The position numbers and the translations under genes were made by a program. DNA of 64,000 nt from Parafilimonas terrae (lineage in GTDB: Bacteria; Bacteroidota; Bacteroidia; Chitinophagales; Chitinophagaceae), in contig NZ_FOXQ01000005.1 in the NCBI RefSeq assembly GCF_900115755.1, positions 1 to 64,000 on the forward strand, in the 5' to 3' direction. Below the pieces are notes generated by a model. The model was not told the DNA's origin, searched no databases, and saw only the letters and a list, made by a program, of their open reading frames with translations. Every line of letters begins with the position of its first letter. Position 1 is the first letter of the stretch. This document shows, in pieces, positions 10,505 through 27,977 of the stretch.

Positions 10505-13500
10505 TTAAAAAGTGATTTTTATACCTCCCGCCAGGGAGAATGGAACAGGTAGCTGGTTGGGATAATAGCGGTCGGGATCAAGCCCCTCCTTGTTGGCCCG
10601 CCATAAAATACCGGCATTCAGCACGTTCAGGTACAGTTGTGCATTGCTGAACATCCGGTGTTTTTGCCCCGGTGCCATGTTATAAACAAGGTATATGTAT
10701 TGCAGCCTTATATGGTCGCCCCGCACCACCAGCGCTTCTGAATTATTGTAAAACTGGTCCCTGAAGCTGCTGTAGGGATACACCAGCGAGGGCACGCTTG
10801 TATGCTTTTCATCCCCCGGCTGCTGCCAGCGCTTTTCAAAATCCCTGTTCATATAGCCGTAATTGTACAGTTGGCCATAGTCAACAGAAGCCTTCCGGAA
10901 CCAATATCCCAGCTTATAGCTGATGCTGATGGTAAGCGACCACTGGCGGTAACTGAAACTATTGTTGAAATAACCAAAATGCACCGGCAGCCCGGAGCCT
11001 GTATAAACAAGGTCATCCGCCATGGTCTGCTGAAGCAGGGCGGCATAATCGGTTGAAGGCTTGCCGTCCAGCCATCCCCTCGGGTCGCCGGTTTGCGGGT
11101 CAAGCCCTGCCCATTTATAACTGGCCACAGCATATAATGGCTTGCCCGGCGCAGCCGATATAATATTGCCGTCACTCACATAGTCGGAGCCTAAAGCGCT
11201 TTCTCCCCTGTAATAACGGGTGGTTTTGGAGAGGTTATAACCGTAATACAGCGTCACCTGCCATGAAAGGGGCGCCTTCAATAGCGTGCTGTTCAGCGTG
11301 GCGTCCACCCCGTCTCCTTTCATGGCGGCTGTATTTTTTATAATGGCTTGCTGGCGCAGCCCGCTGGTATAATCCAGCGGCGCATAACCCAGCAGGTCGG
11401 TGCCGTGTTTATGATAATATTCAATGCTGCCTGCAAGCAGGTTATCCTTCATGGCAAAATCAACGCCCGCATTCAGCATACCGGTTTTTTCCCACCGGAG
11501 GCCCGGGTTGGCAAACTGCGAAATATTGGCAAAGCTGTAGTTGGTATAGGAAGCTCCCGGCACAATGCTCAGGGTGGTCACGGCGCTGCGCTGCTGGTCC
11601 ACGTCACCCGTAAAACCATAGCTCGCCCGCAGCCGCAGCAGGGGCAGCCAGCCCGCCTGCCACCACGGCTCCCGGTTAAGCTGCCAGGCGCCGCCGGCGC
11701 TCCATAAAGGTGTTCCCCTGTTATTGGTAGCCGCACCAAACAGGTTGGACGCATCCTTGCGGGCGCTGGCAGAAATGGTATAACGGCTGCGGTAGCTGAG
11801 CGCCGCATTGATATAGCCCGACAGGAACCGGTCTGTATGGCTGCTTAAACCCGTACCGGGATTAATATAATCTGAATAACCGCTCACATACAGCGGGTAG
11901 CTGTTTACCACATCGGCCGGCGTATAGCTCAGGGTGGCGTCATCATAGCCATACAGCGTATAGCTGCCGGCGCCTGATGCCGTCTGGCGCACCTCCGCCC
12001 CGGCAAGCGCCGTAAGCTCCATATTGTTCCAGCGTTTATCTATATCCGCCTGCGCCCGCAGGGCATGGCCCTCCACGGCAGCATAGCTGTTTACGGCAAT
12101 ACCGCCCGGCGGCACGGCATAAAACAAAGAGCCGTCACTGCCTGCCTGCGTATAGCTGTTTACCATATTGCGGGCATAATAACTCTCCGCATCCTGCAGG
12201 GCCAGGCCGGTTGTATGCTGCTTTTCATACCGATAACTTATGCCGGCCTTAAGCCATGGCAGCAGCCTCAGTTGGGTATTTACATCCAGCAGCAGGTCTT
12301 CCACCCCGCTGGTGGTGGTATTATGCCGGTAATCGTCAAGCGGGTAATAATGCCAGTCTTTCAGCAGCCCGCCACCCGCCGTATCCACATACGGCAGCGG
12401 GTAATCTTTGGTGATGGCCAGTGGCCGGCCTTCATCATCGGCCAGCCTCGTATAAGGATAAAGCAGCCGCCCGGCGGTAGGTATAATATTATCCCATCCC
12501 GGTTTGCCACTGGTGGCTTTGGACCGGGTGTACATAAACCCTATATGCAGCGTCAGCGCCTTAAAGGGCTGCAGGTCATTCTGCCCGCTGAAGCTGTAAC
12601 GGTTATAGCCCGCGGAAAGCGCATCCGCATTGGCATTATAACCGGCGGAAAGCAGGTACCTTGCCTTGTCGCCGCCTCCCGAAAGCGAGAGGGCATACTG
12701 CTGCTGCAGCGAGCTTTTATAGATATAACGGTCAAAATCCCGCCGCACATCATTATGCCCGAGCGTATCCAGGCGCGCTGCCGCCTGTGCAGGTGTAATA
12801 AGCCCGTCACGTTGTTGTATAAGCGTTTCCACCACCGGCGACAGCGCCGGCCTGAAAGGCGAACTTTCATAGTAACTGTAAAAATCATTGTCAAAAAGCA
12901 TTTGCTCCACCTCAATATATCCCGCACTGTTCATGAAATCCTGCGCCTTATACACATCCGGCTTTGCCGTATAGGTAAGCGATGCATTCAGCTCAAGCCG
13001 CAAAGGCTGGTTGTAAGCGCCTTTTTTGGTGGTCATCACAATTACACCGTTACCGGCTTTGGCGCCCCAGATGGAGGCTGCCGCCGCATCTTTCAGCAGG
13101 GTGATGCTTTCTATATTGTTGGGATTGATGTTATTGATATCGCCCTCGTATGGAAAATTGTCGAGTATGATAAGCGGGGCGGAAGGGCCGTTGATACTGC
13201 TGATGCCACGCACATTCAGCCCGCTGCTGCTCTTCAGGCGGCCGTCAAACAGCAGGCCGGAAGCCGCCCCTTTCAGGCGGTCGGTGATGCCGGTGGTTAC
13301 CTGCCTGCCCAGGGCGGCGCTGTCAATGGTTGCAAACGAACCCGTTGCCCGCTCTTTTGGTAAAAGCTGGTAGCCGGTGGAAACAGTTACCGTCTCCAGG
13401 CTGGCCCCGGCAGGAACAAGCCGTACCTGTATATCGGTATCCGCCTGCGAAAAAGCTGCCGTTGCGGTGGCATACCCCAGCGCTTTCACCGTTATCCTGC

Positions 13501-13705
13501 CCCCCTTATCACCGGCAGGGATGCTGGCAAAACCCGAAGTATCGGTAAGGCTGTAATAACTGCTGCCGGCCACATGCACTTCTGCGCCCGCTACCGGCTG
13601 GTTATTGGAGGCATCGGTTACTTTTACCGTTAGCTGCCCGGCATGGCTGCATACACACAGCAGCAGGCATAGCAGCAAGCCTGCTGCCTTATTTATATAG
13701 CTCAT
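10505..13705 (-). CDS. SusC/RagA-family TonB-linked outer-membrane transporter
   Basis: A 1066-residue TonB-dependent transporter. Signal peptide (1-22), carboxypeptidase-regulatory-like domain (about 23-95), plug with NVRGISSI, IILDNFPYEG and IWGAKAGNGVIVMTTKKG, then a barrel ending in KITF. Its start overlaps the stop of the preceding tlpA-like gene by four bases, implying translational coupling. Codon use is GC-richer than in the defense island. Together with the SusD partner and TlpA-like protein it probably imports a ligand whose handling needs periplasmic or surface redox chemistry; this is inference from context. Confidence 0.95.
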   Translation of the reverse strand: MSYINKAAGLLLCLLLCVCSHAGQLTVKVTDASNNQPVAGAEVHVAGSSYYSLTDTSGFASIPAGDKGGRITVKALGYATATAAFSQADTDIQVRLVPAGASLETVTVSTGYQLLPKERATGSFATIDSAALGRQVTTGITDRLKGAASGLLFDGRLKSSSGLNVRGISSINGPSAPLIILDNFPYEGDINNINPNNIESITLLKDAAAASIWGAKAGNGVIVMTTKKGAYNQPLRLELNASLTYTAKPDVYKAQDFMNSAGYIEVEQMLFDNDFYSYYESSPFRPALSPVVETLIQQRDGLITPAQAAARLDTLGHNDVRRDFDRYIYKSSLQQQYALSLSGGGDKARYLLSAGYNANADALSAGYNRYSFSGQNDLQPFKALTLHIGFMYTRSKATSGKPGWDNIIPTAGRLLYPYTRLADDEGRPLAITKDYPLPYVDTAGGGLLKDWHYYPLDDYRHNTTTSGVEDLLLDVNTQLRLLPWLKAGISYRYEKQHTTGLALQDAESYYARNMVNSYTQAGSDGSLFYAVPPGGIAVNSYAAVEGHALRAQADIDKRWNNMELTALAGAEVRQTASGAGSYTLYGYDDATLSYTPADVVNSYPLYVSGYSDYINPGTGLSSHTDRFLSGYINAALSYRSRYTISASARKDASNLFGAATNNRGTPLWSAGGAWQLNREPWWQAGWLPLLRLRASYGFTGDVDQQRSAVTTLSIVPGASYTNYSFANISQFANPGLRWEKTGMLNAGVDFAMKDNLLAGSIEYYHKHGTDLLGYAPLDYTSGLRQQAIIKNTAAMKGDGVDATLNSTLLKAPLSWQVTLYYGYNLSKTTRYYRGESALGSDYVSDGNIISAAPGKPLYAVASYKWAGLDPQTGDPRGWLDGKPSTDYAALLQQTMADDLVYTGSGLPVHFGYFNNSFSYRQWSLTISISYKLGYWFRKASVDYGQLYNYGYMNRDFEKRWQQPGDEKHTSVPSLVYPYSSFRDQFYNNSEALVVRGDHIRLQYIYLVYNMAPGQKHRMFSNAQLYLNVLNAGILWRANKEGLDPDRYYPNQLPVPFSLAGGIKITF

Positions 13706-16071: not shown

Positions 16072-16302
16072 ATGCAGAGGCTAAATGATGTGATTTGTAA
16101 TTATATCAATCGTGAATGGATTGGAAAATGGAAAGGATCCATCAGGGCTTTTGCGACTGAGTATGACGTCGATGAAAAAACTGTTAGAAGAATCATTAAT
16201 TCAGAAAACGATCCGTATTCAATAAGTCTATACACATTAGAAAAAATGTGTACCGCCCGAAAGATAACGCTTGAGCAATTTTTTGGTTTGATTAAAAGGT
16301 AA
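16072..16302 (+). CDS. Cro/C1-type helix-turn-helix regulator
   Basis: A 76-residue protein consisting of a single HTH domain. The recognition region is about SIRAFATEYDVDEKTVRRII, followed by the helix TLEKMCTARKITLEQFF typical of the Cro/C1 (XRE) family. It lies 220 bp upstream of the phosphorothioation genes on the same strand and is followed by its own terminator, so it is a plausible local regulator of the island. The target operator was not identified. Confidence 0.8.
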   Translation: MQRLNDVICNYINREWIGKWKGSIRAFATEYDVDEKTVRRIINSENDPYSISLYTLEKMCTARKITLEQFFGLIKR

Positions 16303-16343
16303 TGGAACTTTTTACATACAACAAATAAGAACAAATGATAATA

Positions 16344-16374
16344 AAAATCCCACCAAGACTGGCGGGATTTTTTT
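16344..16374 (+). terminator. terminator after the HTH regulator
   Basis: A stem AAAATCCC.CC / GG.GGGATTTT with one mismatch and a short loop is followed by a T-run. It ends the regulator transcript about 40 bp past its stop, so the dnd genes need their own promoter within 16375-16521. Confidence 0.78.
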
Positions 16375-16521
16375 CAACCCTAAAATGTAAGGGCTTAGGA
16401 TACCTAATTTATAGATGATGATTGGTGAATTATTAATAACACTTATACTTCAGTTTTTCCACCAGATTTTTTTGAACCTTATGGACTTATCCTGATAACT
16501 TATCTTGCAACCTAAAAAAGA

Positions 16522-17844
16522 GTGGCATTAAACATTCAATATTTAGAAGCAGAGATAATAGATCAATTTTTATACAGCGATGAAAGCAACACCCCTTGGA
16601 TAATAGGTTTTAGTGGCGGCAAGGACAGCACAATGGTTTTACAATTGGTATGGAATGCATTAAAAAAGATTGATCCTATATTAAGGCATAAGAGGCATGT
16701 GTATGTTGTATGCAACGATACATTAGTTGAAAACCCCAGGATCGTAAAATTTATAAACTCCACTTTAGATAAAATTCAAAAAGCTGCACCTAAACAGGAT
16801 ATGCCGATAACGGTTCATGGCACACGTCCTGTTCTGGAAGATTCATTCTGGGTTAAAGTAATTGGTTTGGGTTATCCGGCTCCCAATAAAATACATAGGT
16901 GGTGTACAGATAGGTTAAAAATTCACCCTACAACTAAGTTTATCTTAGAAACAATAAAAGACAGCAAAGAAGCTATAATACTATTAGGCACAAGAAGTGA
17001 TGAAAGTGCTAAACGTGCCGAATCAATAAAAAAACATGAAGTAAGAGGCCAGCGCTTAAGAAAACATCCGTTACCCAATACTTTTGTGTATGCACCTATA
17101 AAAGATGTAACAACTAATGAAGTATGGCAATATCTAAACCAGGTAACTCCGCCATGGGGTGGAACGCATAAAGAGTTAGTTACTTTATACCGCAACGCTA
17201 ATTCCGGCGATTGCCCATTGGTAATTGATACAACCACACCAAGCTGCGGAAATAGCCGTTTTGGATGCTGGGTGTGTACAGTAGTGAATAAAGATAAATC
17301 AATGGAAGGATTGATAGAAAACGGTGAAGAATGGATGCTGCCTTTATCTGAAATCAGGAATTTTCTTGTAGAAGCCAGGGACAATCCCGAAATTTGGAGG
17401 GATGATACTCGGCGCAATGGCCAAAAAGTTGAAGGTTCCTGGGGACCTTATAAATTTAGCACACGTGCAGAAATATTAAAACGTGTTTTGAAAGCGCAAA
17501 AGCAAATACAGGAAACAGAAGGAATAGAGCTTATAACCCACCAGGAATTAGTGTTGATTCAATATTATTGGTTCAGGGATTTATTTTTCAAAGTAAAAGT
17601 TTCCGATATTTATAACCGGGTTTATAAAAACAGGCTTGATATGGGAAAACAGGAAGAAAAATTTAAACAAGAAAACGAATTGCTGCGCAAGTCCTGCAAG
17701 GAGGAGCCAAAAGATGTAGAGTTTATTCAAAACCTGCTGGCACTGCAAAAAACCAAAACCCTGATGATGAAAAAAAGAGGCTTGCTTGATGATATTGAAA
17801 ACCGGCTTGACCAATACATTGATGAACTGAACCCAGCGAAATAA
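16522..17844 (+). CDS. dndC: DndC, DNA phosphorothioation sulfurtransferase (PAPS-reductase family)
   Basis: DndC receives sulfur from the cysteine desulfurase DndA and helps place it in the DNA backbone. It is an ATP-pyrophosphatase of the PAPS-reductase type with an iron-sulfur cluster. The 440-residue product has the PP-loop SGGKDS (31-36), a second nucleotide motif GTRSDES (156-162), and cysteines at 128, 231, 242, 249 and 252. The CGNSRFGCWVC spacing fits the Fe-S site known in DndC. The start is a GTG with an A-rich ribosome site. dndD follows after 5 bp, so the genes form one operon. Lys-rich C-terminal helices (about 370-440) may bind partners or DNA. Confidence 0.93.
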   Translation: MALNIQYLEAEIIDQFLYSDESNTPWIIGFSGGKDSTMVLQLVWNALKKIDPILRHKRHVYVVCNDTLVENPRIVKFINSTLDKIQKAAPKQDMPITVHGTRPVLEDSFWVKVIGLGYPAPNKIHRWCTDRLKIHPTTKFILETIKDSKEAIILLGTRSDESAKRAESIKKHEVRGQRLRKHPLPNTFVYAPIKDVTTNEVWQYLNQVTPPWGGTHKELVTLYRNANSGDCPLVIDTTTPSCGNSRFGCWVCTVVNKDKSMEGLIENGEEWMLPLSEIRNFLVEARDNPEIWRDDTRRNGQKVEGSWGPYKFSTRAEILKRVLKAQKQIQETEGIELITHQELVLIQYYWFRDLFFKVKVSDIYNRVYKNRLDMGKQEEKFKQENELLRKSCKEEPKDVEFIQNLLALQKTKTLMMKKRGLLDDIENRLDQYIDELNPAK

Positions 17845-17849
17845 ATACA

Positions 17850-19946
17850 ATGACTATAAAGGAAATTGAACTTTATAATTTCAGGATTTATAAAGGAGAA
17901 AATACAATTGACTTATCTACCAGCGGTAATAAAAACATATTTATTATCAGTGGGAGAAATGGTTTTGGAAAAACGACGTTCTTAATGTCCATGGTTTGGT
18001 GCTTGTATGGCCGTAACATGCAGGAGGTTGATGATTTATATAAAAAAGAAATTGAAGACCAGGGCGGATACAGCAAATACATAGCAAATTCCCTCAACCG
18101 CATGGCCCGGTCTGAAAACGATTATAAATTTCATGTTGCCATTAAGTTTGTTGATGTAAATATTCCAGAAGTTCCCTGTAAAGAAATTGTGGTTAAAAGA
18201 AGTTATAATACACTCACGAGCACCAGCGAGGATATTGAGATATTAATTGATGGATATTATAGCGAGTTAGCAAAAGATGTAGGCCAGGAAATCTTTATCA
18301 GGGAATTTATAATGCCGATTGAGATTGCTAAATTTTTCTTTTTTGATGCTGAGAAAATCGTAAACCTTGCAGAGGTTACTACCAACGAACAACGTAAACG
18401 TCTTAGCCGGGCTTATTCAGAAGTATTGGGTATAAAAAAATATGAAGACATAAAAGCAAACCTTGAAAGCCTGCAATTAAAACTTCGGCAGGAATCTGCC
18501 AGCGCAGCGGAAAGAAATATGCTGGAGCAATTGAAAGCAGATGTAAACAAAAACCTGAATTTAATTGCCGACAATGAAAATAAAATCCGAGAACTGCGCG
18601 AGTTAAGAAATGAAAAAAATAAGGAATCGAGGGACATACAGGAAAAGCTGATAAAAGAAGGCAGTTTAATAACAGTTGAAGAGTTGCAAAGGCTTAGGGA
18701 AAATGAAGATGAACTAACAAAGAGGCAAACTGCCCTACAAAATGAATTAAAAGATTCTTATGACCTAATACCTTTTGCCATTGCTGGTGATAAGTTTCTT
18801 GAAGTAAGTAAACAATTAGATAATGAAGCCAATTTTAAGGCCGCCCAGTTCAAAGATGAAAATGTAAAGGGGGTAACCAATAAAATTTTAACGGATTTAT
18901 TAAATACCCCTAAGCCTGCAAGCCTTGCTATTGATCACCAGGTGCATAAGTTTTATTCCGATACTTTTGAAAAATTAATCCGCAAGCATTTTTTTGCTGA
19001 CACGCCGCAATTGCCGGAAGATTTTAAAATGCTGCATGAATTTTCTGACACCGAGAAAAATGAAATGCATGCATTACTCAATAACATAAAGCTTTCTTTC
19101 CGAGAATCGTTTAAAAGAATTAATGGCGAATACAATCTTGTTCGCAATGAGTTGAATACCATTAAACGAAGGATAAAAGATGCCGAAGCCAACCAGGAAA
19201 ACCCGATAATATCTGAATTAAGAAAACATAAGGAGGAGTTAGATAAAGAAATTATTCGCATAGACGATACCATTGATTCCCTGAACCGCGAAATTGGCGA
19301 GTACCAGAACGAAAAAATGCAGAAAGGCAAACGTATTGATGAGCTTTCGCGGAAATTAAATGTATCAGAAAAGAATAAAGAGAAAGATGCAATTATTTCA
19401 AGGAACATCAGTAACCTGAAAGATTTTATTTCCAAATTTAAAGCAAAGAAGAAGGCTTCATTGGAAGAGCAAATATTAAAAGGGCTTGAAACCCTTATGC
19501 ATAAAAAAGGCTTTATTAAAAAAGTGGAAGTTGAAATTATTGGCGATGATATTGATATTGTATTAAAGAATAATCGTGGCGAAGAAATTAAAAAGGAATC
19601 ATTGAGTAAAGGTGAACAACAAATGTATGCAACTGCATTATTACGTGGTTTGGTTGAAGAAAGCGATATTCAATTTCCTGTGTTCATTGATTCGCCAATG
19701 CAAAAGTTTGACGAGCAACATGCAGAGAATATTGTAAAATACTTTTACCCGAATGTTTCTGAACAGGTGGTTATTTTTCCGCTTATTAATAAAGAGCTTA
19801 CAGAAAGGGAATTCAATATTTTATCAAAGCATGTTGCCAATACGTTCCTGATTAATAACATACATGAAGATAAAAGTGAGTTTTTGCCGATAAACCCTAA
19901 AGAATTTATAACTACTTATAACAGTATGTATAACCATGCTAATTAA
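17850..19946 (+). CDS. dndD: DndD, SMC/RecN-like ATPase of DNA phosphorothioation
   Basis: A 698-residue ATPase of the SMC/Rad50 type. Walker A GRNGFGKT lies at 35-42. A long coiled-coil follows (about 180-560, rich in Glu/Lys heptads), with a possible hinge around 300-400. The C-terminal head has signature LSKGEQQ and Walker B VFIDSPMQKFD. In Dnd systems DndD supplies ATP-driven DNA handling during sulfur insertion. It lies 5 bp after dndC and overlaps dndE by 11 bases, pointing to coupled translation of C, D and E. Length is close to that of known DndD. Confidence 0.94.
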   Translation: MTIKEIELYNFRIYKGENTIDLSTSGNKNIFIISGRNGFGKTTFLMSMVWCLYGRNMQEVDDLYKKEIEDQGGYSKYIANSLNRMARSENDYKFHVAIKFVDVNIPEVPCKEIVVKRSYNTLTSTSEDIEILIDGYYSELAKDVGQEIFIREFIMPIEIAKFFFFDAEKIVNLAEVTTNEQRKRLSRAYSEVLGIKKYEDIKANLESLQLKLRQESASAAERNMLEQLKADVNKNLNLIADNENKIRELRELRNEKNKESRDIQEKLIKEGSLITVEELQRLRENEDELTKRQTALQNELKDSYDLIPFAIAGDKFLEVSKQLDNEANFKAAQFKDENVKGVTNKILTDLLNTPKPASLAIDHQVHKFYSDTFEKLIRKHFFADTPQLPEDFKMLHEFSDTEKNEMHALLNNIKLSFRESFKRINGEYNLVRNELNTIKRRIKDAEANQENPIISELRKHKEELDKEIIRIDDTIDSLNREIGEYQNEKMQKGKRIDELSRKLNVSEKNKEKDAIISRNISNLKDFISKFKAKKKASLEEQILKGLETLMHKKGFIKKVEVEIIGDDIDIVLKNNRGEEIKKESLSKGEQQMYATALLRGLVEESDIQFPVFIDSPMQKFDEQHAENIVKYFYPNVSEQVVIFPLINKELTEREFNILSKHVANTFLINNIHEDKSEFLPINPKEFITTYNSMYNHAN

Positions 19947-21504
19947 TATTCGTACTTCAGAAGCTAACAAAACCGTTGTGCAGGAATTAAGCCGTAAAGT
20001 TTTTCCCGGCGCTTCTGAAAATTATATTTCCCGTGTTGCCTTTGCTTATTCCATATCAAAGGGCAATCATTTTGATGTAAACAATAAAGAACATTTGCTT
20101 GACAGTCGAGGCAAAGAATATAAAGACGATATCTTATTTGGCAATTACCGGGACTACTATATTGCTATTATTTGCCAGCATTACCAGGTTTATAAAACAG
20201 ACCCGAATATGGCAAAGTATATCAAAATGCACATTGACCATGGGTTGCAGTTGATGAATAAATTGTTCGAAGAGAATAAAAATTATTCAGGGCTCGATTT
20301 TCTTTTGGAGTACATAGAAAAAGGCATTGAATCTTTAGAAGAAAATACGGTAACAAATGAAGCTATCCTTTTTGATGAACAGATAAGAAAAAACCGTGTT
20401 ACCAGCAAAGCTTATTATGCTGAACGGATTAAAATAAAAGTGGGCAGCAGTTTTGATGATGAACCTATTTATTTCAACATCAATGATACGAGCATACATA
20501 ATAATGCCCATGTAGCCATTGCCGGTAATTCAGGAACAGGCAAAACTTATTTTGCCAACCGTTTTTTAGAACAGGTAGCGGCAGAAACAAAACACCAGGT
20601 AAATTTTATCTATCTTGATTTTAAGGGCTTGAAAAAAGAAGATGAAAAAGCGTTAGAGCCTTTCTTTAAGAAAACAAAGGCAGTTTATATTGATGCTCCT
20701 CAAAAGCCTTTTCCAATAAACCCGTTAGCTTTCATTGATAATGTAAATGAGAAAAACAAAATAATGGGCATCAACAAATTTGTTGATATCATCACCAGCT
20801 ACAGCAATATTGGAAAGGTGCAGCAGCAAACCTTAAAAGATGCCACCCGCAATGCTTTTACTGCTGCTAAAAAAGGCGAGTATCCTTCCATAAAAGACAT
20901 TTTTAATAATATTGTTTCCGTTGATAACAGGCCCAGCACTCTGATAGAAATAATGCAAACACTTAGCGAACTGGATTTATTTGAACCCAAAGTTGATTTT
21001 AAGAACAGCTTTCTCAACCAAAATTATTATTTAAGTTTATCAGGAGATTTACCAAACAACATTCGCTTTACTGCTGTTTTTTTGATAATCAATTATATTT
21101 ATAACACGTTCATGAATATGGATAATGCACCAATTGAGGGAAAGTACCAGGGAATGCGTTATGTGTTTTTGATTGATGAAGCACACGTTATATTTAAAGA
21201 AAAGAAGAGCCAGGACCTGCTTGAAAAAATTTTGCGGGAAATAAGAAGTAAAGGTGTGTCAGTTATTTTGTTATCACAAGGCATTGAAGAGTTTAACCAG
21301 CCGTCATTTGATTTCAGTAGTATGTGTGAAACGGCATTCTTGTTTGATATAAAAGATAAAACCAATCTTAAAATGATAGAAAGATTTTTAGGCATTGGTG
21401 ATAAATATTCAAGCAAGCTAAAAATGAGTATGGAGAATATTCAGAAATACCAGGTTGTAAGTAATTTGAAAGAATATAAGGTTGGAGAATTGTTTAAAGT
21501 ATAG
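19936..21504 (+). CDS. dndE: DndE domain fused to a HerA/FtsK-like ATPase
   Basis: A 522-residue protein. Residues 1-130 match a DndE domain: a short helical module starting INIRTSEANKTVV with LSRKVF and later YYIAIICQHY. DndE normally stands alone at about 110-130 residues and binds nicked DNA. Residues about 160-522 form a P-loop ATPase: Walker A GNSGTGKT (197-204), Walker B VFLIDEAH (about 410-417), then a sensor-like VILLSQG stretch, as in HerA/FtsK translocases. The gene overlaps dndD and is followed 3 bp later by a GIY-YIG gene. The fusion suggests a motor joined to the DndE subunit. It could also serve restriction, since no dndFGH genes are seen nearby. Confidence 0.88.
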   Translation: MLINIRTSEANKTVVQELSRKVFPGASENYISRVAFAYSISKGNHFDVNNKEHLLDSRGKEYKDDILFGNYRDYYIAIICQHYQVYKTDPNMAKYIKMHIDHGLQLMNKLFEENKNYSGLDFLLEYIEKGIESLEENTVTNEAILFDEQIRKNRVTSKAYYAERIKIKVGSSFDDEPIYFNINDTSIHNNAHVAIAGNSGTGKTYFANRFLEQVAAETKHQVNFIYLDFKGLKKEDEKALEPFFKKTKAVYIDAPQKPFPINPLAFIDNVNEKNKIMGINKFVDIITSYSNIGKVQQQTLKDATRNAFTAAKKGEYPSIKDIFNNIVSVDNRPSTLIEIMQTLSELDLFEPKVDFKNSFLNQNYYLSLSGDLPNNIRFTAVFLIINYIYNTFMNMDNAPIEGKYQGMRYVFLIDEAHVIFKEKKSQDLLEKILREIRSKGVSVILLSQGIEEFNQPSFDFSSMCETAFLFDIKDKTNLKMIERFLGIGDKYSSKLKMSMENIQKYQVVSNLKEYKVGELFKV

Positions 21505-21507
21505 ATA

Positions 21508-22083
21508 ATGATTACTCAAGCTACTTTGGATTTATTAGATGCCGATATTCGAAAAGATGTTCGTAGATATAATCGAATGCCATTTAAGGATAGGCACAAG
21601 ATTTTCTCACATGAGATTAGAATTGATCCCTATTGGTGTAATAAAAAATTTCAGCAAATTCCTGTTTTAAATTGGAGTGCTGACTTTAAGTTTTCATCTC
21701 ATCCTGATTTTCAACAAATAATTACTACAAATGATATAGGCGTCTATATTATGTATGTAAAACCTGTAAATTTATTAATAGACATGCCGCAATATGTAAT
21801 GTATGTTGGGATTTCAGGTGAAAACGGTTCCGCTAGGCCCCTGCGAGATAGATTAATGGATTATTTTTATATTAGTAAAATAAAGTTGCGAAACAATATA
21901 CATACGATGCTTCAACTTTATTATGATCATGTTTATATTAAATACGCTCTATTTAATGGTACTTATCAATCGCTTGAACAGTTAGAAGAAATACTTCATG
22001 AATTTTTTTATCCAAAGTTTGGAAAAAGAGATTTTGAACCTGAAACAAAGGCTGCTCACTCTGCTTGGAATACCGGGCAATAA
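21508..22083 (+). CDS. GIY-YIG-like nuclease within the dnd operon
   Basis: A 191-residue protein with a GIY-YIG-type core: GVY (78-80), YVG (99-101), an arginine in the following helix (LRDRL, about 113) and a glutamate-rich helix EEILHEFF (160-167) that could supply the metal-binding acid. The N-terminal 75 residues are unrecognised and may recognise DNA or partners. It starts 3 bp after dndE and ends 11 bp before dndB, so it is co-transcribed with the modification genes. Possible roles are sensing or cutting non-phosphorothioated DNA, or nicking during modification; neither is proven. GIY-YIG similarity is by motif reading only. Confidence 0.68.
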   Translation: MITQATLDLLDADIRKDVRRYNRMPFKDRHKIFSHEIRIDPYWCNKKFQQIPVLNWSADFKFSSHPDFQQIITTNDIGVYIMYVKPVNLLIDMPQYVMYVGISGENGSARPLRDRLMDYFYISKIKLRNNIHTMLQLYYDHVYIKYALFNGTYQSLEQLEEILHEFFYPKFGKRDFEPETKAAHSAWNTGQ

Positions 22084-22094
22084 ACTTTTTTGTA

Positions 22095-23336
22095 ATGGAA
22101 AATAAACTTGTTATTCCTTGTATTAGGTCTGTGATGGGTGATTGGGTATTTTATTCGTCTGTAATGGATGTGATGGAAATATCAATAAGAGTAAAAACTG
22201 ATAAAAAATATCGAGAGAATCCAGATTTAGATAAAATTCTCCAAAGAGACTTAAAGGAAAGAAGACAAAATATTGCAAAATATCTACTAACCAGCAAAAG
22301 CCGATTCTTTAATTCTATAATTATAGGAGTGTTTAACAGTATTCCACAGTGGCATGAGTTCAAAATTGATAAAAAATTAAACGAAATAAATGGAAGTAAT
22401 CAAAACCAAGAGTACAATCATTCAGTTGGATTGTTAGAGTTTAGCGGAGATGAAGAAATGTTTGCAATAGATGGTCAGCATAGGGTAGCAGGTATTCAAA
22501 TAGCTTTTGAACAAGAACAAAATAAACCAAATGATGAAAAGATTTTAAAAGATGATAAATTCCCTGTGATTTTTATTGCTCATATTGATGACAATTTGGG
22601 TAGAAAGAGAACAAGAAAGCTTTTTTCTGACATTAATAATACGGCACGGCCGGTTCAAGAGGGTGATAGAATAAAGGTTGATGAAGAAAATTTAAATGCA
22701 ATTGTGACCAGGAGAATTTACGCTAATTATGAACATTTTAAGAATGGAAAATTAATATCACTAACTGAAAGAGAAAAGTTAGACAGCAAAGATGAGGATC
22801 ATTTCACAAATCTTTTAGGGATTAATAATGCTAATAAAATATTGAAAAAACTTTTCAAAAAAAAACCTAAAACAAATGAATGGGAAGAAGAAAATGTGGA
22901 ACGCTTTTATAAAATTGTCAAAGAATTCTATGATTATGTTATTGAAAATGTAATCGATTATAATAGCTTTTTTGTTAAGAAAAAACTTACTATAAAGCAA
23001 GCAAGGAAAAATAATTTGTATCTTTTATTTCGCCCGATTGGCCTAAAGCTTTTAGCTCGATTATATGTTTTTTATAGCGCTAAAAAAGACGGGCTTGAAG
23101 AGTTAAAAACGAAGATCAATAAAATCAGTTTTGTCTTCCCTGATAGTCCTTTTAATAATCTTTTATGGTCCGACGGCAAAATGAAAGCAAGAGAAAAAAA
23201 TCAAGCTATAGCTTATGAGATCACTTTATATATATTTGGTGATTTACAAAACGATAAACAAAAAACTTTATTAGAAAGGTATAAGGATGTTGTTGGTAAT
23301 CCAGCGATAACATTACCGCAAAAAATTAAAGTCTAA
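22095..23336 (+). CDS. dndB: DndB-like DGQHR-domain protein
   Basis: A 413-residue protein with the defining motif DGQHR (126-130) in a FAIDGQHRVAGI context, and a family block LFSDINNTARPV. DndB proteins bind DNA and repress or tune the dnd genes, and affect modification levels. The ATG at 22095 is preferred over an upstream frame extension because the latter would overlap the previous gene. It closes the plus-strand operon dndC-dndD-dndE-GIY-dndB and meets the convergent dndA with overlapping stop codons (four-base overlap). In most Dnd loci dndB lies before dndC, so its end position is unusual. Confidence 0.88.
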   Translation: MENKLVIPCIRSVMGDWVFYSSVMDVMEISIRVKTDKKYRENPDLDKILQRDLKERRQNIAKYLLTSKSRFFNSIIIGVFNSIPQWHEFKIDKKLNEINGSNQNQEYNHSVGLLEFSGDEEMFAIDGQHRVAGIQIAFEQEQNKPNDEKILKDDKFPVIFIAHIDDNLGRKRTRKLFSDINNTARPVQEGDRIKVDEENLNAIVTRRIYANYEHFKNGKLISLTEREKLDSKDEDHFTNLLGINNANKILKKLFKKKPKTNEWEEENVERFYKIVKEFYDYVIENVIDYNSFFVKKKLTIKQARKNNLYLLFRPIGLKLLARLYVFYSAKKDGLEELKTKINKISFVFPDSPFNNLLWSDGKMKAREKNQAIAYEITLYIFGDLQNDKQKTLLERYKDVVGNPAITLPQKIKV

Positions 23337-24514
23337 ATAGGCAATATCATTTCGCGCAATTCATATATGCACTTTTTTACAACTTCAATTGTAATATAAA
23401 TTTGTTCTATTCTACTGAACTTCCCAATCGAAAACCGAATACTACTAAACGAATCAATTTCATTTAATCCCATAGCAGTTAAAACATGAGAAGGCTCGAT
23501 ACTTGCAGATGTGCAGGCGCTGCCATTACTTACAGCAATTAAAGGCAAATCATTTTCCATATTGCTTAATCCCATTATCATAGCATCGCTATCAACATCC
23601 TTAAATAAAATATTTGTGGTATTGTACAAGCGGTGTTTTTTGTTGCCATTTAAACTGGTATCTTCTATTTGTAATAATTCGTTTTCAAGATAATCCCTTA
23701 ATGCTTTAATATGTTGTTCGTTTTGCCTCATTTCTTTTTTGGCAATAGCGCAGGCAGCACCAAGCCCAACTATCCCCGGTACATTTAGAGTGCCGCTACG
23801 CAAACCCCTTTCATGGCCACCGCCATGTATTAGTGCAGGTAATTTTATACGGTTATTTCTCTGCCGTATATATAAAGCTCCAATACCCTTTGGTCCATAT
23901 AATTTATGTCCGCTCATGCACATTAAATCAATGCCCATATTATCTACATCAATCGGTATTTTTCCAACAGCCTGTGTAGCGTCTGTCATAAAATACGCAT
24001 CGGCAGCATGGGCTATCTCTGCAATTTCTTGTATGTTTTGCAATACACCTGTTTCATTATTAGCGTACATTACTGTTACGAGAATAGTATCATGCCGCAA
24101 CGCTAACTTTACATCTTCAATGTTAATTAACCCGTCATTCGCCACAGGCAGGTAGGTAACTTCAAAGCCTTTTGTTTCGAGGTATTTACAGGTATCTAAA
24201 ACAGCATAATGTTCTGTAGAAACAGTTATAATATGTTTTCCTTTCTTCTCATAATTTTCGGCAACGCCCTTTATAGCAAGATTAATAGCCTCAGTAGCAC
24301 CACTGGTAAAAACCATTTCATTTGTTTCTGCGCTAATCAAATCGGCAACTTGGCGCCTGGCTTTCTTCACCGCTTCATGGCTTTCAACCCCAAACAGGTG
24401 TGTGCTATTGGCATTGGCAAAATTATCTTTTAAAAAAGGCATCATGGCATCCAACACACGTTCGTCAATCTGCGTTGTTGCATTATTGTCAAGATAAATT
24501 ACCTGCTTGTTCAT
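23333..24514 (-). CDS. dndA: DndA/IscS-like cysteine desulfurase
   Basis: A 393-residue PLP enzyme that takes sulfur from cysteine as persulfide. It has the PLP-lysine motif SGHKLYGPKG, the cofactor motif TEHYA, and the catalytic cysteine loop GSACTSAS. Its location in the island, facing dndB with overlapping stops, supports a dedicated sulfur donor for DndC. An IscS role cannot be excluded because the family sequence is nearly the same. It is the last gene of a minus-strand set: methyltransferase, HEPN-motif protein, dndA, with gaps of 53 and 37 bp. Confidence 0.92.
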   Translation of the reverse strand: MNKQVIYLDNNATTQIDERVLDAMMPFLKDNFANANSTHLFGVESHEAVKKARRQVADLISAETNEMVFTSGATEAINLAIKGVAENYEKKGKHIITVSTEHYAVLDTCKYLETKGFEVTYLPVANDGLINIEDVKLALRHDTILVTVMYANNETGVLQNIQEIAEIAHAADAYFMTDATQAVGKIPIDVDNMGIDLMCMSGHKLYGPKGIGALYIRQRNNRIKLPALIHGGGHERGLRSGTLNVPGIVGLGAACAIAKKEMRQNEQHIKALRDYLENELLQIEDTSLNGNKKHRLYNTTNILFKDVDSDAMIMGLSNMENDLPLIAVSNGSACTSASIEPSHVLTAMGLNEIDSFSSIRFSIGKFSRIEQIYITIEVVKKCIYELREMILPI

Positions 24515-24551: not shown

Positions 24552-25748
24552 TTAGTTTTTCACACTGTCAATTTTAATAAATGCTTGTTCAATTTTATTA
24601 TTACGCATAGCATAATGGTCAATTATGTGCCCATCAAAACCAATATAGGAAAATACAATTTTGTATATAAATGAAAGCTGCCTCTGCATGATGATTACCA
24701 TTTCCGCATCTTCTATATCTTTTATATCGCCATGCATAAAATCATTGCGCTTTTGTAATAATAAAATATCTTCATCGGTAACAGGCATAAAGCACTCAAA
24801 TACCAACTTTGATTTTTCCATATTTTTATTATTTGAATAATTTTTTGGAAGCTTAGCTTCAAACACTTTATAGAAGAACTTCCTAAGCACTTCAATTACG
24901 ATAAAAAAGCAGTTATTTCTTATTAGTAAAGATGTATCGCTGCTGTTAGCTTCATTAAACAATACTAAAGCATATTGTATTTCATTATTCTCTTGGGATA
25001 GCTGTGCCAGCTTAGATAATTGTTGAGGTAGTAAATATTTTAAAATATTCTGCTGGTAAATTTTTTCAGCAGTATCTTTTCCTAAATAATGATTATAGCC
25101 AAAAGGGTTGGCAGTAAAAGGATGATATATAGATTTATAACCCTTTCTTAATTTTTCATATTTGACAATCATTTCATCTTGATTATCTCGCGGGAAAGTA
25201 AATACCGCATCCTGGATAAATACGCCCGATACAAATCCAAGTGCTACCAGAATATTATAGGATATAACTGAAAAGTCTTCATAAAATATTTCAGCTTCAT
25301 TTTCAATAACGATATAGTCGTCAAGTTGGCGTATAGAAATAGGTTTATGATTGACGGTTAGTTGAATCTTAGATGCTTTACCAAAAACCTGAAAAAGCAA
25401 ATGTTTGGAAGAAGTGTAAAAAAAACTTCTGTATAAACCATATTCGTTCCAATTGCTGTTTTGAAAAGAAAAGACTTTGCATTCCGTATAATGCGAAACA
25501 AATTTTCGCTCAACAGATGTTTCCACGTTAACCGCAATTGCCTTGATTTGCAGGCTTAAGTCATCTGTAATGAAAAGAAAAGAATATTCATTAACATCAA
25601 GGTTTAATTCACCTTCTATTTTAAAAAGATAAGCGCCCTCCTTAAATTCTAATGCAGCGCTTTTGTTTTTATTATTGCTGCTCACATTTCCGACAAGTTC
25701 TTTCTGCAATGTTTTTATATATTCTATTTGTTTCAGGTAATTTTTCAT
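24552..25748 (-). CDS. uncharacterised protein with HEPN-type RNDFMH motif
   Basis: A 398-residue protein I cannot assign to a named family. The C-terminal third is helical and contains KRNDFMHGDI, i.e. an R-x4-H motif (Arg334, His339) preceding further helices, as in HEPN ribonucleases and ApeA-type antiphage proteins. The N-terminal 200 residues are beta-rich with many aromatics and could be a sensor. The gene is between a cytosine methyltransferase and dndA on the same strand, with short gaps, so it is likely expressed with them. A role as RNA-cutting abortive effector linked to DNA modification is inference. Confidence 0.72.
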   Translation of the reverse strand: MKNYLKQIEYIKTLQKELVGNVSSNNKNKSAALEFKEGAYLFKIEGELNLDVNEYSFLFITDDLSLQIKAIAVNVETSVERKFVSHYTECKVFSFQNSNWNEYGLYRSFFYTSSKHLLFQVFGKASKIQLTVNHKPISIRQLDDYIVIENEAEIFYEDFSVISYNILVALGFVSGVFIQDAVFTFPRDNQDEMIVKYEKLRKGYKSIYHPFTANPFGYNHYLGKDTAEKIYQQNILKYLLPQQLSKLAQLSQENNEIQYALVLFNEANSSDTSLLIRNNCFFIVIEVLRKFFYKVFEAKLPKNYSNNKNMEKSKLVFECFMPVTDEDILLLQKRNDFMHGDIKDIEDAEMVIIMQRQLSFIYKIVFSYIGFDGHIIDHYAMRNNKIEQAFIKIDSVKN

Positions 25749-25801: not shown

Positions 25802-26689
25802 TCAATTAAAATACCGTACCGCCACTTCACCCACCCATTTGCCCATCTGCACCGGCACGGCATTGCCAATAAGCTTATAAGAAGAACGTTTCTCTTCAAA
25901 ATAAAAGTCATCGGGAAAGCCTTGTAGTCTTGCGTATTCGCGGATGGAGAACGGCCTTACACCATATTGTGCCTGTTTATCTTTTACCAATCTTGTGCTG
26001 AGGTCTTTTGCATAATGCGCTACACAAGTTGGTGCAAAAGCATTAGGGTTATCAGCATCTATAATTATTGGCAAATCCCTGTATTTTCCCTTAATCCTTT
26101 TTATAACATAAGCAGGTATTTCAACCTGCGGGTTTCTTTCCAAAATATCCTTTATTCTTGGGCGGTTGTTGATGGCTTTTGGTTCACTAATATTAAAAGG
26201 TTTTCTTGTTCCAATCAGTATTAAACGTTTTCTTCTTTGGGGTAACCAATTCAACGCATCTACCGGGCAAAATACATGCACATAATAACCGGGAAGCTTG
26301 GTCATTGCCTCCATTACTACTTTAAACTTTTTCATGCCGGGCACGTTTTCCACTACATACATTTCTGGCTTCTCAATAGCTATATGACGAAAGAAATGCA
26401 GGAACAAATCATCGCCGGTACGGGTGCCATGTATATCGGCAATAGGGGAATACTTAGTGCAAGGGTAAGTGCCAATGATGATATCGGAATGGGGTTGCTC
26501 CAATACCGTTTTATCTTTTATATCGGCAGTGAGGATGGCATGGCCAAAATAGTGCTTGTTAGCCTGCATGCAAGCAGTAGCTTCCGCATCCAGATCAAGC
26601 GATTGTATAATGTTGACACCGGCTTGCTGCATGCCGAGTTCCATGCCGCCGCAACCGGAAAAATAGCCTTTGGCTGTGGGTTGATACAT
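25802..26689 (-). CDS. C5-cytosine DNA methyltransferase
   Basis: A 295-residue enzyme that methylates cytosine C5 in DNA from S-adenosylmethionine. The motifs are in normal order: I (FSGCGGMELG), IV with catalytic Cys77 (TYPCTKYS, usually PPCQ), VI (ENVPG, 114-118), VIII (QRRKRLI, 151-157), IX (REYARLQGFP) and X (GNAVPVQM). The region between VIII and IX (about 160-240) is short, so the target recognition domain is small. Its start lies 43 bp from a mobile repeat. It is first in a putative operon with the HEPN-motif gene and dndA. An HNH endonuclease upstream may be its restriction partner. Confidence 0.93.
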   Translation of the reverse strand: MYQPTAKGYFSGCGGMELGMQQAGVNIIQSLDLDAEATACMQANKHYFGHAILTADIKDKTVLEQPHSDIIIGTYPCTKYSPIADIHGTRTGDDLFLHFFRHIAIEKPEMYVVENVPGMKKFKVVMEAMTKLPGYYVHVFCPVDALNWLPQRRKRLILIGTRKPFNISEPKAINNRPRIKDILERNPQVEIPAYVIKRIKGKYRDLPIIIDADNPNAFAPTCVAHYAKDLSTRLVKDKQAQYGVRPFSIREYARLQGFPDDFYFEEKRSSYKLIGNAVPVQMGKWVGEVAVRYFN

Positions 26690-27203: not shown

Positions 27204-27977
27204 TCATCCTTTAAAAATCACATCCATGTGGTATTGAAGAAACTTTATACCGGGTTGATATTTTTTAGGCATTACAATTTTTGAGCCTTGCAGCGGAGCA
27301 AAATGTATTTGATGATAGCCTTCATTTTGCTTCTTCTTTAATTGATTTGATAAGACGACCTCATATTTTTCAGTAATGCCAATATAGCCTTTATCATAAG
27401 CTTTATCATACAAAGGCGAAAGGCAAATGCCATTTTCGGGGTTCAACCTTTCCTCTTCATTTTTTGACCAAGGCAATATATGGCTGGCCAGCAAAAGATC
27501 GGGGATATCAATACCGGTAATGGCGCAGCGGCCATTATAGTTGGCAATAACGATCCGCCGGAAAACATTTTGGTTTACCCTTGTTTTAACTTCCCTAAGC
27601 TTGTACTCGCCTTTTAAATGGTTGATATCCTTTAAGTCCGGAGAATATTTATTTTCTATTGATGTATGTTCTTTTTCAGCCAATATCTTTTCGCTTTCAA
27701 ATAGCAGTTCGTCTTTGTTATCAATGAACTCATTCCAAATTGGTTCCACTTGTTTTATGCCGCCGGTTAAGCCAACAATACCGCGTTGCCGGTGATAAGG
27801 GTCAACCGCCGCAAAATTGTTTAAGCGCATAGCTACTGCGCTTGCTGTTCTTTCAATAAGATTGGCCAAGTGAATTATTTCCGGCGTTTTGGAATGCAGT
27901 TTTCCAAAAGGCAGTTTAAGATAAAGGTTTAAGGCAAGTACCAGTTCATCCCTTGTCCAAAGTTTTCTTTCAGCCAT
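27204..27977 (-). CDS. HNH endonuclease (COG3440-like, putative restriction enzyme)
   Basis: A 257-residue protein. The N-terminal 60 residues (WTRDELVLALNLYLKLPFG, then SAVAMRLNNFA) form a helical module common to a family of predicted restriction HNH nucleases. The C-terminal HNH core is CAITG, then ASHILPWS, then NPENGICLSPLYDKAYDKGY. The first His and the Asn are present; at the third ligand position the motif reads LYDKAYD, a Tyr variant. It lies on the same strand as the cytosine methyltransferase, 514 bp away, so it may be its partner or a reader of modified DNA, phosphorothioate included. The family match is by motif only. Confidence 0.8.
   Translation of the reverse strand: MAERKLWTRDELVLALNLYLKLPFGKLHSKTPEIIHLANLIERTASAVAMRLNNFAAVDPYHRQRGIVGLTGGIKQVEPIWNEFIDNKDELLFESEKILAEKEHTSIENKYSPDLKDINHLKGEYKLREVKTRVNQNVFRRIVIANYNGRCAITGIDIPDLLLASHILPWSKNEEERLNPENGICLSPLYDKAYDKGYIGITEKYEVVLSNQLKKKQNEGYHQIHFAPLQGSKIVMPKKYQPGIKFLQYHMDVIFKG

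Follow-up and report, generated by a model that had tools for sequence, protein, structure and literature searches.

What works with a phosphorothioate (PT) modification operon that lacks the DndFGH restriction complex? The question is raised by a locus of Parafilimonas terrae (Bacteroidota; Chitinophagaceae), in the first 64,000 bases of contig NZ_FOXQ01000005.1 (assembly GCF_900115755.1); we call this whole stretch the window, and it lies in contig 18 of a 4.99 Mb genome. A tight plus-strand operon runs from dndC and dndD through an in-frame fusion of DndE to a HerA/FtsK-like ATPase, a GIY-YIG-like gene and a gene annotated dndB, with intergenic gaps of +5, -11, +3 and -19 bases and a dndA-like gene converging on it. 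An earlier reading of the DNA (the original prediction), which began the island at 16072, upstream of dndC, had described this layout, and the coordinates agree with it. It also proposed that the fusion and the GIY-YIG protein together form a different modification-restriction or nicking module. We find that the GIY-YIG gene is instead paired with the gene behind it, which carries a DGQHR motif, and that the two occupy a slot in which four kinds of two-gene cassette occur. On balance, and with modest confidence, we read the pair as a two-subunit effector resembling SspE and DndI, in which a DGQHR nucleoside triphosphatase (NTPase) would sense PT and gate a GIY-YIG nuclease, carried on a constant writer. 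The elements of the locus are as follows.

16522-17844, plus strand: dndC, sulfurtransferase of the PT writer resembling phosphoadenosine phosphosulfate reductase (TIGR03183, 450 bits; cut-off 290)
17850-19946, plus strand: dndD, SMC/Rad50-like ABC ATPase (TIGR03185, 269 bits; cut-off 246)
19936-21504, plus strand: DndE::HerA/FtsK fusion, 522 amino acids (aa), with DndE at about 1-111 and the ATPase at about 160-500
21508-22083, plus strand: GIY-YIG/URI-family nuclease candidate, 191 aa, first cassette gene, assigned from residues invariant among its homologues
22065-23336, plus strand: DGQHR (ParB-like) protein, 423 aa, second cassette gene, matching TIGR03187
21508-23336, plus strand: the putative exchangeable effector cassette (GIY-YIG and DGQHR genes) behind the stop codon of the fusion, delimited by comparison of loci
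23333-24514, minus strand: dndA-like cysteine desulfurase, converging, at the right edge of the slot (PADLOC DndA 552 bits, SspA 557 bits)

A pattern scan of an 84,980-species collection, biased to close relatives, gave 70 stretches, of which 49 encode the fusion; with the window these make 50 loci (L012, L013, L014, L015 and L121 stand outside this count). The order dndC-dndD-dndE::HerA is constant wherever the contig shows it, except in the loci with an inserted nuclease gene described below. In 41 of the 50 the slot after the fusion holds one of four cassettes, whose domain names are taken from one member of each family. Thirteen loci have GIY-YIG and DGQHR genes. Sixteen combine a second DGQHR family with a small protein that has 2-5 hydrophobic segments (the membrane type), and nine, L025 (6850-8920) among them, combine a ParB-like relative of PADLOC PD-Lambda-5_A with a partner of 317-342 aa; a GHKL-type ATPase with Methyltransf_35 is found in four. 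One locus, L034, carries two cassettes, GIY-YIG with DGQHR and membrane with DGQHR. An extra gene for an Mrr-type nuclease (weak HARE-HTH match) is present in six loci, its product being only 134 aa in L027, and at least 18 of the 50 have a dndA-like gene on the opposite strand no more than 5.2 kb from the fusion, some contigs ending earlier. Separately, on an Aliivibrio wodanis plasmid (L070, 11660-13563) a small protein with three hydrophobic segments and a DGQHR protein are encoded between dptFGH and dndEDCB, so that the membrane-type cassette may also occur beside canonical Dnd.

The partnership within the GIY-YIG cassette is close. Profile searches for the GIY-YIG family covered two partly overlapping sets of 395 genomes, one from the phylum and one from the class. 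From the phylum search we dropped 23 of 27 weak-match genomes (E 5e-7 to 1e-4), 17 with frames of 567-660 aa, the size of UvrC, and six with frames of 276-304 aa; from the class search we dropped G985, with a frame of 602 aa, and G817, the stretch of which (L120) matches L023 at 100% identity across 10,920 bases. All 19 retained homologues (the 13 loci, L015, L107, L108, L121, L122 and L123) directly precede a DGQHR gene of the same family. Approached from the DGQHR side, plasmid and phage sequences yielded six records, H11 and H12 (Rhizobium plasmids like H10) among them, and the GIY-YIG gene stood directly upstream in all four that were examined. Across the 13 loci, distances between GIY-YIG proteins follow those between their DGQHR partners (Mantel r=0.89, 0 of 5000 permutations as high), while neither follows the fusion (r=-0.18 for GIY-YIG and -0.09 for DGQHR). 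The partners of the ParB-like cassette behave similarly, with r=0.85 in nine loci and values of 0.17 and -0.01 for each against the fusion. The window illustrates the point: L021 and L022 have fusions 85% identical to its own but GIY-YIG proteins only 19% and 24% identical, and its nearest GIY-YIG relative among the 13, that of L057 (45%), sits behind a fusion 51% identical to that of the window.

The pair is also found beside three kinds of writer. In 15 of 23 pair loci the writer is the HerA-type dnd core: 13 of the 50, L121, and L015, where the DndE part was not detected. Five lie beside Ssp writer genes (L107, L108, L117, L122 and L123, the contig of L122 ending inside sspC) and two beside canonical dndBCDE (L116 and L119), with a dndB of their own; in L118 there is no writer in the 17 kb shown. 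Two of the Ssp loci also encode large proteins beside the pair, of 820 aa (L108, 7543-10002) and 837 aa (L122, 6437-8947), with N-termini that look alike by eye and no PADLOC match.

The left boundary of the slot is sharp. We compared 27 pairs among the 50 loci with core DNA at least 78% identical (78-96%) and homology reaching to within 120 bases of the stop codon of the fusion. In the 12 pairs with differently labelled cassettes, homology ends between -13 and +41 bases from that codon, within 13 bases in 11 of them; L033/L034, counted here, have the membrane type in common. The three pairs of the same type, window/L022 included, all lose homology at the stop codon as well. Among the 12 pairs with an unclassified member it continues in two, for about 990 bases in L044/L066 and about 180 in L043/L051; the L049/L050 pair is uninformative because of a contig end. 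In two Kordia genomes with cores 87% identical, homology is lost at +4 and returns at 93.5% past the cassette. In Arcicella aurantiaca (L034) roughly the last 184 bases of the HerA coding region are repeated between the stacked cassettes (13416-13619), which is what recombination through that end would leave, and this duplication is likely the scar of cassette recombination. A tree of 54 fusion proteins (the 50 loci and L012-L015, with four divergent rows on long branches) requires 20 changes between the four cassette states over 41 rows, a figure without a shuffled counterpart. With all six labels the tree requires 29 changes, where shuffling gives 32.1 on average and is as low in 22 of 200 runs; cassette type is thus at most weakly tied to ancestry; presence of the GIY-YIG gene alone requires 10 against 11.8 (56 of 500 as low). 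Strains with close writers and different effectors are found in Kordia (L047/L059), Pontibacter (L040/L067) and Flavobacterium (L028/L029), for example.

The assignment of the first cassette gene to the GIY-YIG family, made in the original prediction, holds at the level of the family. Only G78, Y80, Y99, G101, R115 and E160 are invariant in the 16 homologues, the others being 15-45% identical to the protein of the window, and we take these six residues to be the GIY-YIG set. Pfam GIY-YIG matches nine of the 16 members at a loose limit of E 0.5 (best 2.4e-6), the protein of the window not among them. The family profile picks up UvrC-sized open frames in other genomes and matches the solved UvrC structure 1yd6 with E 0.008. 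A search of 296 near relatives with the protein of the window matched its own genome only, and a tblastn search of plasmids gave no match; the latter was too insensitive, since the family profile later found GIY-YIG genes in plasmid stretches reached through DGQHR.

The name dndB, by contrast, does not survive for the second gene. Its product scores 55.7 bits against the DndB equivalog TIGR03233, where the cut-off is 328, and 101 bits against the general DGQHR model TIGR03187, where it is 59. The same type of DGQHR gene lies in L116 and L119 beside true dndB genes scoring 444 and 467 bits, and the DGQHR motif is invariant in 13 sequences. Judged on its sequence, the gene is not a canonical dndB and is part of the cassette. 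Genes annotated dndB are thus of at least two kinds.

What stands upstream is probably a PT writer, as its gene content and motifs argue. Homologues of dndC, dndD and dndE lie in one operon with a cysteine desulfurase gene, and catalytic motifs are in place throughout: in dndC the PP-loop SGGKD at residue 31 and cysteines 231, 242, 249 and 252; in dndD Walker A at 35, LSKGE at 585 and Walker B at 611; in the fusion Walker A at 197 and Walker B at 410; and in the dndA-like desulfurase the pyridoxal phosphate lysine motif. The in-frame fusion was correctly recognized earlier: residues 5-111 match Pfam DndE (PF08870) with 64.9 bits against a cut-off of 25, and also the solved DndE 7x4e (E 3e-4), while the C-terminal part of PADLOC DndH aligns with residues 131-477 (88 bits). 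The DndE part stays below the cut-off of the equivalog TIGR03184 (33.5 bits against 71.85). Among 395 genomes drawn evenly from the phylum, nine match the fusion at E <= 1e-20, five over most of its length (its own genome included) and four in the DndE part only. A viral scan with the fusion found no relative, and a plasmid search returned seven records, none covering 80% of the query.

Five loci encode, inside the dnd operon, homologous proteins whose C-terminus is an HNH nuclease and whose N-terminus, in L057, the one searched, matches the sulfur-binding domain (SBD) 8h0l (E 1.7e-10).

L033, 8444-9427: SBD-HNH gene inside the dnd operon
L042, 7860-8924: SBD-HNH gene inside the dnd operon
L057, 8434-9402: SBD-HNH gene inside the dnd operon
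L063, 8850-9863: SBD-HNH gene inside the dnd operon
L069, 1-765: SBD-HNH gene, its upstream side beyond the contig end

In L033, L042 and L057 the gene follows dndC and the 5' part of dndD is gone, with varying break points; in L063 it follows dndC and all of dndD and part of DndE are gone; in L069 it begins at the contig end and runs directly into a HerA remnant. All five loci with an SBD-HNH gene thus have a truncated or missing dndD, and no such gene is found in 38 loci with full-length dndD similarity, some of which have dndD split over two frames (Fisher p 1e-6, or 9e-6 for four of four against none of 38 when L069 is left out; the tests cover 43 loci, since in seven others the contig breaks off within dndD or before it, and ignore kinship). 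In L012, which is not part of this count, dndD similarity is full-length, and upstream there is no more than a 90-aa fragment of a sulfur-binding-type domain. Restriction of SBD-HNH genes to loci with a broken or lost dndD would be expected if the core writes PT. Co-expression of a PT-dependent enzyme and dnd genes was reportedly harmful in one study. Less than 3.6% of predicted PT-dependent enzymes may be near dnd genes, with mutated clusters as one suggested reason (Lutz et al., PMC7461809).

The absence of DndFGH from the operon, also part of the original prediction, extends to the genome for two of its components. DptF (TIGR03238) was not found in the genome, both control records being positive, and a query with whole DptH matched only the HerA part of the fusion there, the DndH body not being found; DptG was not found in the window, this search being confined to the window and the collected loci. 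Among these loci, DptG and the DndH body match only the two control loci and L016, which has a stand-alone DndE. The DptH profile TIGR03237 was positive in no control and is not counted; the DptH protein query and DptF served in its place. DptF is present in one of 53 genomes with the fusion (three of these having divergent versions, and the genome of L037 being outside the count), namely that of F. hydatis (L029), the relation of its contig to the dnd locus being unchecked, and in one of four genomes with stand-alone DndE.

In the mechanism we envisage, dndC, dndD, dndE::HerA and dndA would make up a constant PT writer whose DNA-binding subunit carries a fused translocase domain, and the cassette would be a portable effector. 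The DGQHR protein, as a ParB-fold NTPase, would read the PT state of DNA and license or restrain the GIY-YIG protein as a nuclease, with PT-free invading DNA being cut and the cell's own DNA spared. Recombination through dndA on the right and the conserved end of dndE::HerA on the left would exchange each cassette as a whole. The Ssp system has counterparts of DndA and DndC but different ATPase and DNA-binding subunits (PMC10853773); Ssp and Dnd thus share the PT product and the sulfur-transfer enzymes and not the DNA-scanning subunits, as would suit a pair that recognizes PT and not one particular writer. The presence of DGQHR proteins beside a membrane protein in the same slot is likewise consistent with a sensor that drives different outputs, although the DGQHR proteins of the two cassettes belong to different families.

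The nearest precedents are SspE and DndI. In SspE a single chain carries both a ParB-like domain, with the motif DGQQR, and an HNH nuclease; recognition of PT sets off hydrolysis of GTP, which licenses the nuclease, and the arginine of DGQQR is required for both PT-stimulated GTPase activity and licensing (PMC13251355). DndI has the domain order of SspE, works with IscS-DndBCDE and is reported to cause filamentation of cells that lack the writer (PMC11662687). The locus described here would have the same parts, a ParB-like NTPase, a nuclease and a PT writer, with DGQHR in the place of DGQQR. However, theirs is a single chain with a DUF1524 HNH domain, whereas here two genes are involved and the nuclease would be of the GIY-YIG type (neither protein has an HNH family match), and PT sensing was measured there and is proposed here. 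A division into two proteins has a parallel in the first GmrSD described; GmrSD and BrxU combine a DUF262 (ParB/Srx) NTPase with a nuclease, much as the pair would, but act on modified-cytosine DNA via an HNH-type DUF1524 domain (PMC10952713). SNIPE is an antiphage nuclease of the GIY-YIG type, the role proposed here for the first cassette gene, but a single membrane-anchored protein with DUF4041, and PT is unmentioned in the available text of its paper (PMC13190303). Compared with canonical DndABCDE and DndFGH, the locus has homologous dndC, dndD, DndE domain and dndA, and its ATPase resembles the DndH C-terminus; unlike there, DndE is fused, the operon has no canonical dndB and the genome no DptF or DndH body.

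Several observations weigh against an SspE/DndI-like pair. The GIY-YIG protein of the window, taken alone, has no family match in the hidden Markov model (HMM) libraries, and the final Asn kept in 13 of the 16 members (by eye) is missing from it and from L048 and L057. Its predicted model (pLDDT, the predicted local distance difference test score, 73) has no significant Foldseek match among solved structures, the best being unrelated (E 0.75); for the DGQHR model the best match is BrxU, again non-significant (E 0.16), and the DGQHR profile found no relevant match among solved chains. ParB-like proteins have other reported roles, regulation included. In the membrane cassette the partners are more loosely coupled (r=0.43, 10 loci), and the membrane protein slightly follows the fusion (r=0.26, against -0.16 for its DGQHR protein). 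The contig of L049 ends 17 bases past the fusion, leaving 49 loci with a visible slot, and in eight of these none of the four cassettes is present, so a cassette is not always needed. Finally, exchange without a change of writer leaves unexplained how one effector would suit different PT motifs.

Other explanations must be weighed against the same data. The fusion and the GIY-YIG protein could form one restriction complex in place of DndFGH, in keeping with their adjacency in the operon, the likeness of the ATPase domain to the DndH C-terminus and the rarity of DptF in fusion genomes. We consider this quite improbable: of the 49 fusion loci whose slot is visible, 36 lack the GIY-YIG gene; that gene is found beside Ssp and canonical Dnd writers where there is no fusion, and it does not co-vary with the fusion. 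The original prediction of a single module of fusion and GIY-YIG protein is not supported on these grounds. Its broader idea of a different effector module fares better, in that the locus probably has another kind of effector than DndFGH, but the partner of the GIY-YIG protein is the DGQHR gene and not the fusion. Another alternative gives the two proteins separate roles: the GIY-YIG protein would serve alone as a suicide backup nuclease, and the DGQHR protein would regulate the writer in the manner of DndB. Such a backup has been proposed for URI nucleases at dnd boundaries, as has a regulatory role for DndB (PMC10853773), and the DGQHR gene is DndB-like. This seems unlikely to us, since a canonical dndB is also present beside the pair in L116 and L119, the protein of the window falls far under the DndB cut-off, and the GIY-YIG gene lies inside the operon, ahead of the DGQHR gene in all retained loci and co-varying with it, the latter being exchanged along with its partner.

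We see very little prospect that the GIY-YIG protein is a selfish, homing-type endonuclease driving its own insertion, with the DGQHR gene as a passenger. GIY-YIG folds are present in homing enzymes and the cassette type changes often, but three cassette types without a GIY-YIG gene share the same slot and boundary, the same pair has different neighbours in Ssp and canonical Dnd loci, and the co-variation of the GIY-YIG protein with DGQHR is strong. It is also improbable, by a wide measure, that PT is no longer written by the operon, or that the operon modifies DNA in some different way, with the cassette acting on something else. A cytosine methylase gene (dcm) 1.3 kb past dndA might be taken in this sense; against it stand the intact motifs of DndC, DndD and DndA, the occurrence of the pair with Ssp writers and the confinement of SBD-HNH genes to loci with a truncated or missing dndD.

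The surroundings of the operon differ from it in composition: its G+C content of 0.338 is below that of both flanks (0.482 and 0.425), which suggests acquisition from outside. Past dndA lie, on the minus strand, a gene for a 398-aa protein (24552-25748) with no family match in the HMM libraries, in which RNDFMH at residue 334 resembles by eye the HEPN RNase motif, and genes for a cytosine-5 DNA methylase (25802-26689) and an HNH nuclease (27204-27977), probably a separate type II restriction-modification pair. All three were considered as members of the module and dropped: among the 49 relatives only L051 had a dcm match, a distant one, the HNH matches were of different kinds, and the 398-aa gene had no counterpart.

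The fusion of DndE to HerA/FtsK (clade 3), beside a DndD-related ABC ATPase and split from DndFGH, is already published (PMC10853773), and the PT loci described there are alike in this respect. That paper places URI nucleases at dnd boundaries, whereas here the GIY-YIG gene is paired with a DGQHR gene inside the operon. As far as its available text goes, a fixed order with a swap slot, sharp junctions and GIY-YIG-DGQHR pairing are not described, and the words swap, exchange, cassette and truncat are absent from its main text. Our search of the open-access literature, covering titles, the openings of abstracts and passages, found no description of the pair or the slot. What is new here is therefore the swap slot with its four cassettes and the GIY-YIG-DGQHR pairing.

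PT modification often occurs without DndFGH, and the pair is a concrete, testable candidate for a reader and nuclease common to different PT writers. Natural strain pairs with a similar writer and a different effector exist as well. More tentatively, and with a good deal of doubt, PT immunity may be a plug-in platform in which writer and translocase find and present DNA and interchangeable sensor-effector pairs respond, whether through a nuclease, a membrane protein, a ParB-like pair or a GHKL pair. By swapping a cassette of about 2 kb at the stop codon of the fusion, strains would then keep the same DNA mark while changing the way in which phages are killed or blocked.

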